DNA of 64,000 nucleotides, taken from the NCBI RefSeq assembly GCF_004345725.1, contig NZ_SLXG01000012.1:1-64000 (forward strand). The letters are read 5' to 3'. Under the pieces are notes generated by a model. The model worked only from the letters and a program-made list of their open reading frames with translations, was not told the origin of the DNA and did not search any database. Below, one piece after another: positions 54,344-55,479 of this stretch. Position numbers and translations under genes: made by a program. This DNA comes from Crenobacter luteus. Its GTDB lineage: Bacteria; Pseudomonadota; Gammaproteobacteria; Burkholderiales; Chromobacteriaceae. The first letter of the stretch is position 1, and each line of letters starts with the position of its first letter.

Positions 54344-54372
54344 TTGACTCCTAGGGTTAACCCATATAAATT
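54344..54372 (+). promoter_or_regulatory. Strong sigma-70 promoter with an embedded GGGTTAACCC palindrome
   Basis: TTGACT (54344-54349), then either TATAAA (54365-54370, 15-nt spacer) or TAAATT (54367-54372, 17-nt spacer). The spacer contains the perfect 10-bp palindrome GGGTTAACCC (54354-54363), a likely operator. It drives the guaC leader or a small RNA. Confidence 0.7.
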
Positions 54373-54377
54373 GCCCC

Positions 54378-54455
54378 GGTTTGTTCGTGCGGACCCCGAG
54401 GGGCGACGCAGGGGACACTGTAAACGGGAGCCATTGCGGCTCCCGCTTTTATTTG
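54378..54455 (+). ncRNA. Structured guaC leader: attenuator or small RNA candidate
   Basis: From the expected +1 (about 54378) the transcript would form a C/G-rich hairpin (GACCCC-GA-GGGGC near 54392-54404) and then CGGGAGCC-ATTGC-GGCTCCCG (54425-54447), followed by CTTTTATTT, an intrinsic terminator. So either a roughly 75-nt small RNA is made, or transcription into guaC is attenuated. A second alternative stem can form between CAGGGG (54409-54414) and CCCCTG (54460-54465), followed by TTTTT. No match to a riboswitch class I know. Confidence 0.5.
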
Positions 54456-54525
54456 GGGCCCCCTGTTTTTGCGCCGCGGCAGACGTGTCGGCGGCACGAC
54501 CCATCTGCTCAAGGAGTACCACCGC

Positions 54526-55479
54526 ATGATCAAGACCGAAATCAACTACGGCGACATCTACCTCGTTCCCAAGCGCACCGTCGTCGACAGCCGCAAGGAA
54601 TGCGACACCTCGGTGCAGTTCGGCCCGCGCCGTTTCGACATGCCGGTGTACCCTGCCAACATGAAGAGCGTGGTCGACGAGGAGACCTGCGAATACTTCG
54701 CGCGCCGCGGCTGGTTCTACACCATGCACCGCTTCAACGTCGACGCGACGCGCTTTACCGCCGACATGCAGGAAAAAGGCCTGTTCTCGTCGATCAGCAT
54801 CGGCGTGAACGAGGACACCGACGAGCAGTTGCGCAACCTGAAGGCCGCCGGCCTGAGCCCGGAGTACATCACGCTCGACATCGCCAACGGCTGGTGCGTG
54901 AAGGCCGAGCGCATGATCAAGAAGGTCAAGGACCTGTTCCCCGAATCCTTCCTGATCGGCGGCAACATCGCCACCGGCGAGGCCGCGCAGGATCTGGAAT
55001 CCTGGGGCGTCGACGCGGTCAAGGCCGGCATCGCCGGCGGCCGCGTGTGCATCACCAAGAACAAGACCGGCTTCCACCGCCCGATGGTGTCGACCGTGCT
55101 CGACTGCGCGCAGGCGGTGAAGATCCCGGTGATCGCCGACGGCGGCATCAGCGAACACGGCGACCTGGCCAAGGCGATCGCCTGCGGCGCGACCATGATC
55201 ATGGCCGGCTCGCTGTTCGCCGGCTACGACGAGTCGGCCGGCCAGATCATCGAGATCGACGGCAAGCACCTGAAGGAATACTTCGGCAGCGCGTCCGAGC
55301 ACAACAAGGGCGCCTACAAGAATGTCGAGGGCAAGCGCATCTACGTCGAGTACAAGGGCGCGATCGAGCGACTGTTGATCGAACTGAAGGAAGACCTGCA
55401 GTCGTCGATCAGCTACTCGGGCGGCAACACGCTGGCCGCGCTGCGCGACGTCGAGATGATCTTCGTCAACCGCTACTGA
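54526..55479 (+). CDS. guaC: GMP reductase
   Basis: 317-aa IMPDH/GMPR TIM-barrel enzyme converting GMP to IMP with NADPH, a purine-salvage step. ATG 54526 follows AAGGAG. It has YLVPKRTVVDSRKECDTSVQ, FDMPVYPANMKSVVDEETCE, IGGNIATGEAAQDLESWGVD, the catalytic Cys loop GIAGGRVCITKNKTGF (about residue 166) and IADGGISEHGDLAKAIACGA. The length and the C-terminal EYKGAIERLLIELKEDLQSS fit the Bacillus-type GuaC group. A long structured leader precedes it. Confidence 0.94.
   Translation: MIKTEINYGDIYLVPKRTVVDSRKECDTSVQFGPRRFDMPVYPANMKSVVDEETCEYFARRGWFYTMHRFNVDATRFTADMQEKGLFSSISIGVNEDTDEQLRNLKAAGLSPEYITLDIANGWCVKAERMIKKVKDLFPESFLIGGNIATGEAAQDLESWGVDAVKAGIAGGRVCITKNKTGFHRPMVSTVLDCAQAVKIPVIADGGISEHGDLAKAIACGATMIMAGSLFAGYDESAGQIIEIDGKHLKEYFGSASEHNKGAYKNVEGKRIYVEYKGAIERLLIELKEDLQSSISYSGGNTLAALRDVEMIFVNRY

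Follow-up and report, generated by a model that had tools for sequence, protein, structure and literature searches.

A conserved structured leader upstream of guaC in Chromobacteriaceae: a predicted transcription attenuator with a possible response to GTP

In the 64,000-nucleotide stretch of DNA analysed here (the window), the GMP reductase gene guaC is preceded by a conserved leader which, judged by Rfam and the literature searched, is a regulatory RNA undescribed so far. In Chromobacteriaceae and a sister family, the leader is predicted to control the enzyme by which GMP re-enters the purine pool. Comparison of related leaders indicates that it is very probably a cis-acting transcription attenuator of guaC. 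The best explanation of the element as a whole, to which we assign a probability of about 0.45, would be a cis attenuator of guaC in which escape from the terminator T1 depends on GTP. Transcription would start at about position 54378, and RNA polymerase would make the hairpin P1 and then the T1 hairpin. From established knowledge of intrinsic termination, most polymerases would dissociate where the U tract ends, leaving an RNA of about 75 nt, while those escaping T1, and then the enclosing stem T2 where it is present, would transcribe guaC. Escape from T1 would be set by the speed with which the GGGG straight after the U tract is added: low GTP would lengthen the pause and favour termination, and high GTP would favour read-through into guaC. 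GMP reductase, which converts GMP to IMP, would accordingly be produced under an excess of guanine nucleotides, a sensible direction for this enzyme. The outer stem T2 would act as a second, lineage-dependent terminator. Once attenuation is granted, GTP as the trigger comes rather close to an even chance; the full step, from the GTP level to the choice between termination and guaC expression, is proposed tentatively. The coordinates of the features are collected in Table 1.

Table 1. Features of the guaC leader, its promoter and the controlled gene in the window
Feature	Sequence or pairing	Positions	Strand	Basis
Sigma-70 type promoter	TTGACT-17-TAAATT	54344-54372	+	Promoter scan; matching promoter at the same place in relatives
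Transcription start (putative)	GG	54378-54379	+	Spacing from the -10 element
P1 hairpin	UGCG-GA-CCCC..GGGG-CGA-CGCA	54388-54410	+	Pairing kept in relatives, compensatory changes
Alpha, 5' arm of outer stem T2	CAGGGG	54409-54414	+	Alignment, folding
Unpaired conserved element YGYAA	UGUAA in the window	54419-54423	+	Leader alignment
T1 intrinsic-terminator hairpin	CGGGAGCC-AUUGC-GGCUCCCG	54425-54445	+	Terminator scan, covariation, folding energy
T1 U-rich tract	CUUUUAUUU (DNA tail CTTTTATTT)	54446-54454	+	Terminator scan, leader comparison
Invariant GGGG, 9 nt past the T1 stem, in the predicted release zone	GGGG	54455-54458	+	Leader comparison
B2, 3' arm of T2 plus U run	CCCCUG, UUUUU	54460-54470	+	Alignment, folding
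guaC ribosome site	AAGGAG	54511-54516	+	Sequence; ATG at 54526
guaC, GMP reductase, controlled gene		54526-55479	+	NF003966 match

The guaC product scores 454.7 bits against NF003966 (cut-off 344), and the gene before the leader resembles ParA-family ATPases, with a score below that family's cut-off. The strong promoter originally predicted ahead of the leader is confirmed by its relatives: it is the sole promoter-like site within 1.6 kb (0.1 expected by shuffling), and a simple consensus rule recovers a matching upstream promoter, with 17-18 nt spacing, in 44/44 guaC leaders. The same rule, a consensus scan whose reach excludes weak and other promoter types, found a promoter between the T1 end and the ATG in none of the 44. 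Transcripts of guaC must therefore pass through T1, or start further upstream. The features by which an attenuator is recognised are thereby present, namely an upstream promoter and a conserved intrinsic terminator before the start codon, with no promoter after the terminator; together with conserved structure and strict linkage to guaC, they uphold the original prediction of an attenuator before this gene. The expected start nucleotide, 7 nt past the -10 element, is G in 38 of the 44 leaders, and a G at the transcript start could add to the GTP dependence of guaC.

The palindrome GGGTTAACCC that had been pointed out in the promoter does lie in its spacer (54354-54363) but is not conserved beyond the window's own genus. 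Among the inspected leaders it occurs only in two genomes of that genus (L001, L002), and it was rejected as part of the conserved element on account of this restriction; it is a possible genus-specific operator. In three other leaders (L033, L034, L040), the palindrome TCTTCACGTGAAGA, or a close version of it, lies some 10-25 bases ahead of the -35 element, and a half-site, TTGACGTGAAGA, overlaps the -35 element itself. Together they may form an operator through which a transcription factor acts on guaC in Aquitalea and its relatives.

For the conservation of the leader, 80 named loci were retrieved. In a first sample of the window's family, guaC (at least 76% identity) is present in 33/37 genomes, the weak matches in the others being guaB-like. 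The upstream regions of the Chromobacteriaceae guaC loci align across the whole leader, and the arrangement of promoter, P1, T1 and T2 is found in all guaC-bearing Chromobacteriaceae genomes found and in the sister family. A covariance model (R1) recovers the leader in all searched genomes of the family that have guaC, weakly in the Vogesella indigofera group, and the window leader scores 88 bits with a covariance model built from its relatives. Aligning the full set with MAFFT and RNAalifold yielded a poor consensus, the T1 loops being of unequal length, and a structure-guided alignment was used instead. In this alignment of 38 leaders, 96% of pairs are standard and both-sided changes occur in 8/20 pairs; cells with such changes number 27 against a shuffled mean of 5.1, with 0/500 shuffles as high, in an alignment that was fitted to the structure and whose counts lean towards it. 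Most of the covariation comes from P1 and T1: P1 pairs are kept in 94-99% of cells, with compensatory changes at 3/7 pairs, T1 has both-sided changes at 4/9 pairs, and T2 has one pair of this kind. The covariance search that had been suggested as a check therefore returned the element in all guaC-bearing family genomes, with covariation in P1 and T1, and the conserved structure in homologous leaders on which the attenuator reading had been made to depend was looked for and found.

The linkage of the leader to guaC is strict. Family genomes devoid of guaC (three of genus g2 and an incomplete one, g10) contain only terminator-like chance matches, and no genuine second copy of the leader was detected in the family genomes, the inspected full-length secondary matches being ordinary gene-end terminators. 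Among 399 genomes of the order, one clear match lies outside the family (G321, from the family of Jeongeupia), again before guaC and with 64.8 bits; the other order-wide matches outside the two families score near 30 bits, and six that were inspected look like terminators. The leader is not present before the guaC of more distant AT-rich Neisseriales.

The original description of two hairpins, the second with a T-rich tail, holds for P1 and T1. Between them lies the unpaired element YGYAA, in which the G and the first A are 100% conserved and the second A 97%. The alternative stem that had also been envisaged can indeed form, as the CCCCTG (54460-54465) of a CCCCCTG run pairs with CAGGGG (54409-54414) and is followed by TTTTT, but it encloses T1 as an outer stem instead of competing with it, and it is not universal. 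T2 is well paired in Chromobacterium and the window's genus, and its 5' arm overlaps the 3' arm of P1. In Vogesella and Chitinibacteraceae, T2 is weak or absent, or lacks the U run, yet T1 and GGGG persist. In Vogesella leaders (e.g., L044, L046, L048), a further potential hairpin, ATGTCGCTATCCGGAACGGCGGCAT, follows the attenuator and precedes the ribosome site. In the window's genus (54378-54395 in the window), the GGUUUGU that opens the transcript is able to pair with GCGGACC, which excludes P1, and this pairing together with an extended T2 constitutes the preferred full-length fold of the window's leader. It is a possible local switch of the window's own genus, not seen in other genera.

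The window leader folds better than its shuffles (z -2.39), and the comparative evidence for its structure is much stronger than this score. T1 dominates the folding energetics. In the window it has an advantage of 17.2 kcal/mol over any T1-less fold, and when 44 leaders, truncated where the U tract ends, were folded with T1 forbidden, the penalty was 16.1-23.9 kcal/mol (median 19.5). Constrained folding revealed in these 44 leaders no mutually exclusive fold that removes T1, which makes an RNA-only antiterminator unlikely and leaves a kinetic or factor-driven decision. A riboswitch had been suggested; one of the terminator/antiterminator kind acting on T1 is thus disfavoured, T1-less folds being 16-24 kcal/mol worse. 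Three candidate switch pairings were rejected by inspection. An antiterminator between GAGCC of the P1 5' arm and GGCUC of the T1 3' arm is lost in Vogesella, whose T1 shows covariation that P1 does not share; the T1 5' arm and B2 are near-complementary in the window and show no covariation in Vogesella; and pairing of GGGGCC back to the T1 3' arm shows no covariation and is broken in Crenobacter. Repression by hiding the ribosome site was likewise rejected, since the distance from GGGG to the ATG ranges from 37 to 118 nt across leaders and the sequence there is not conserved. Reading the leaders by eye between +1 and T1 revealed no start codon with a ribosome site that could open a leader peptide.

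The G run directly after the U tract is the basis of the GTP proposal. GGGG starts 8-10 nt past the T1 stem in 49/49 distinct leaders, which are related by descent and do not represent 49 independent observations; intrinsic termination usually occurs 7-9 nt past the stem. The pattern used to extract the leaders itself demanded GGGG; it missed just two leaders, both with GGGG, and six distant leaderless loci, and the figure of 49/49 is therefore not a selection effect. As controls, 137 terminator-like sites were collected from 400 kb of two related genomes and from the window, five of them with GGGG and one of these five being the present leader. GGGG thus lies 5-11 nt past the stem in 4/136 control terminators, a count on which its interpretation as a general terminator feature of these genomes was rejected. 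Moreover, GGGG is kept where the next C run differs (ACGCCC, GCTCCC, AACCC or CCTATCG in L060, L066, L067, L041 and L043), and it is therefore unlikely to be kept for pairing. The G run at the termination site appears to be conserved beyond the needs of pairing, as would be expected of an NTP-sensing attenuator. More tentatively still than for the GTP step, it may be proposed that RNA polymerase itself measures GTP via the four G's at the release site, with no aptamer, protein or ribosome. GGGG could instead act simply as downstream DNA that adjusts termination, or be recognised by a protein. The GTP model has no need of P1 and YGYAA, yet both are conserved, which hints at another signal or factor, and it is mainly for this reason that confidence in the model is limited. 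P1 and YGYAA might shield the folding of T1, work together with T2 or serve as the binding site of a factor.

An alternative is a metabolite-binding riboswitch, in which the conserved UGCG/CGCA stem, YGYAA and UUUGGGG would form an aptamer with T1 as a structural arm, like the terminator tip of the HMP-PP riboswitch, and GMP, guanosine or another purine would decide the formation of T2 (CAGGGG:CCCCUG plus the U run) in competition with P1. This reading is consistent with the conserved unpaired nucleotides on either side of the internal loop, with the overlap of the P1 and T2 arms, which would allow competition in Chromobacterium and the window's genus, and with the precedent of a terminator-embedded aptamer (PMC6478431). 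We nevertheless consider it rather unlikely, as T2 is weak or lacks the U run in Vogesella and Chitinibacteraceae although the other parts of the element are kept there, T1 by itself makes a good terminator that no alternative fold removes, and the strictly conserved unpaired positions are few for an aptamer. The absence of a competing fold would suit a fixed, unregulated and leaky double terminator holding guaC low, with regulation at the promoter, or a variant of it opened by a general elongation or antitermination factor. The possible operators in the promoter regions of some genera (TCTTCACGTGAAGA in Aquitalea, GGGTTAACCC in the window's genus) fit this arrangement, but a weak promoter would be a cheaper way to a fixed low level, yet the promoters are near consensus, and the precise conservation of GGGG, YGYAA and P1 would be left unexplained; we regard it as unlikely.

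The element might also be a free-standing trans-acting sRNA of about 75 nt, as the original prediction had offered, with a 5' hairpin, a single-stranded seed around CAGGGG/YGYAA and T1 with its U tail as the terminator, guaC being expressed by leakage through the latter. An RNA of this size, ending near 54455, is expected as the terminated product of the attenuator in any case. In favour of an sRNA, the leader has its own promoter, T1 should release such an RNA, and the architecture is like that of Hfq-type sRNAs. A free-standing gene is, however, very unlikely, because the element is always found immediately before guaC and is missing from the family members that lack this gene, the inspected full-length second matches are ordinary gene-end terminators, and an RNA with the expected 3' end would stop short of the invariant GGGG, which could then play no part in it.

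The preferred reading, a cis attenuator with GTP-dependent escape from T1, has parallels among known systems. In pyrBI of E. coli and pyrG of Bacillus subtilis, both NTP-sensing attenuators of pyrimidine genes, RNA polymerase itself reads the NTP level. Like these, the guaC leader places a nucleotide synthesis gene behind a promoter-proximal intrinsic terminator and needs no dedicated aptamer. Unlike them, it precedes a purine gene and has no leader peptide or reiterative start tract that we could see, and the proposed sensor is a G run just past the terminator U tract; no homology is claimed. If the GTP reading is true, a terminator combined with a short homopolymer would suffice for the direct sensing of a single nucleotide, and such a minimal design could be sought elsewhere and serve as a simple GTP reporter. 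With T7 RNA polymerase and an adenine riboswitch, termination changed with the NTP concentration and was highest at the highest one (PMC10003555), and the direction of the proposed GTP effect is therefore not guaranteed. The HMP-PP riboswitch (thiS motif), a terminator-embedded aptamer (PMC6478431), resembles the guaC leader in having conserved nucleotides and a hairpin inside a long terminator stem with a U run. In that riboswitch, however, the tip is no terminator by itself and the aptamer P1 competes with the terminator, whereas in the guaC leader T1 needs no further parts to make a complete terminator, and T2 does not occur in every lineage.

As had been anticipated for guanidine and purine riboswitch motifs, no Rfam family matches the leader. 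The whole window gave no family at the gathering score, and a relaxed threshold, applied to the window region and nine relatives, gave chance-level matches only, those in the window region being to microRNAs. The purine riboswitch RF00167 and the guanidine and related classes share with the leader a purine gene context and differ from it in that neither the window nor its relatives match them in Rfam. In a text search, a guaC or Chromobacterium motif was not found in the main texts of the discovery papers. RF00167 was found only beside Streptococcus guaC, downstream of the gene, in 3/5 loci scanned.

Other leaders were observed before guaC elsewhere. In other Burkholderiales (L164, L166, L167, L170-L174), a different conserved leader lies upstream of guaC, with no relevant Rfam match. 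In it, TAGAAT is followed by a hairpin resembling a terminator, CACCGGGCCCAAG..CTTG..CGTCCGGTTTTTTT, located where the transcript is expected to start, and CCAAGCCAAGCGC after the hairpin can pair with the ribosome site GGAGCTTGG. The guaC leaders of Streptococcus (L080, L082-L093, L096, L098-L102, L104-L106) share a compact structured motif, ACGTC..GACGTAGCGATGC-loop-GCATAGGTAGGTC, about 60-100 bases before guaC.
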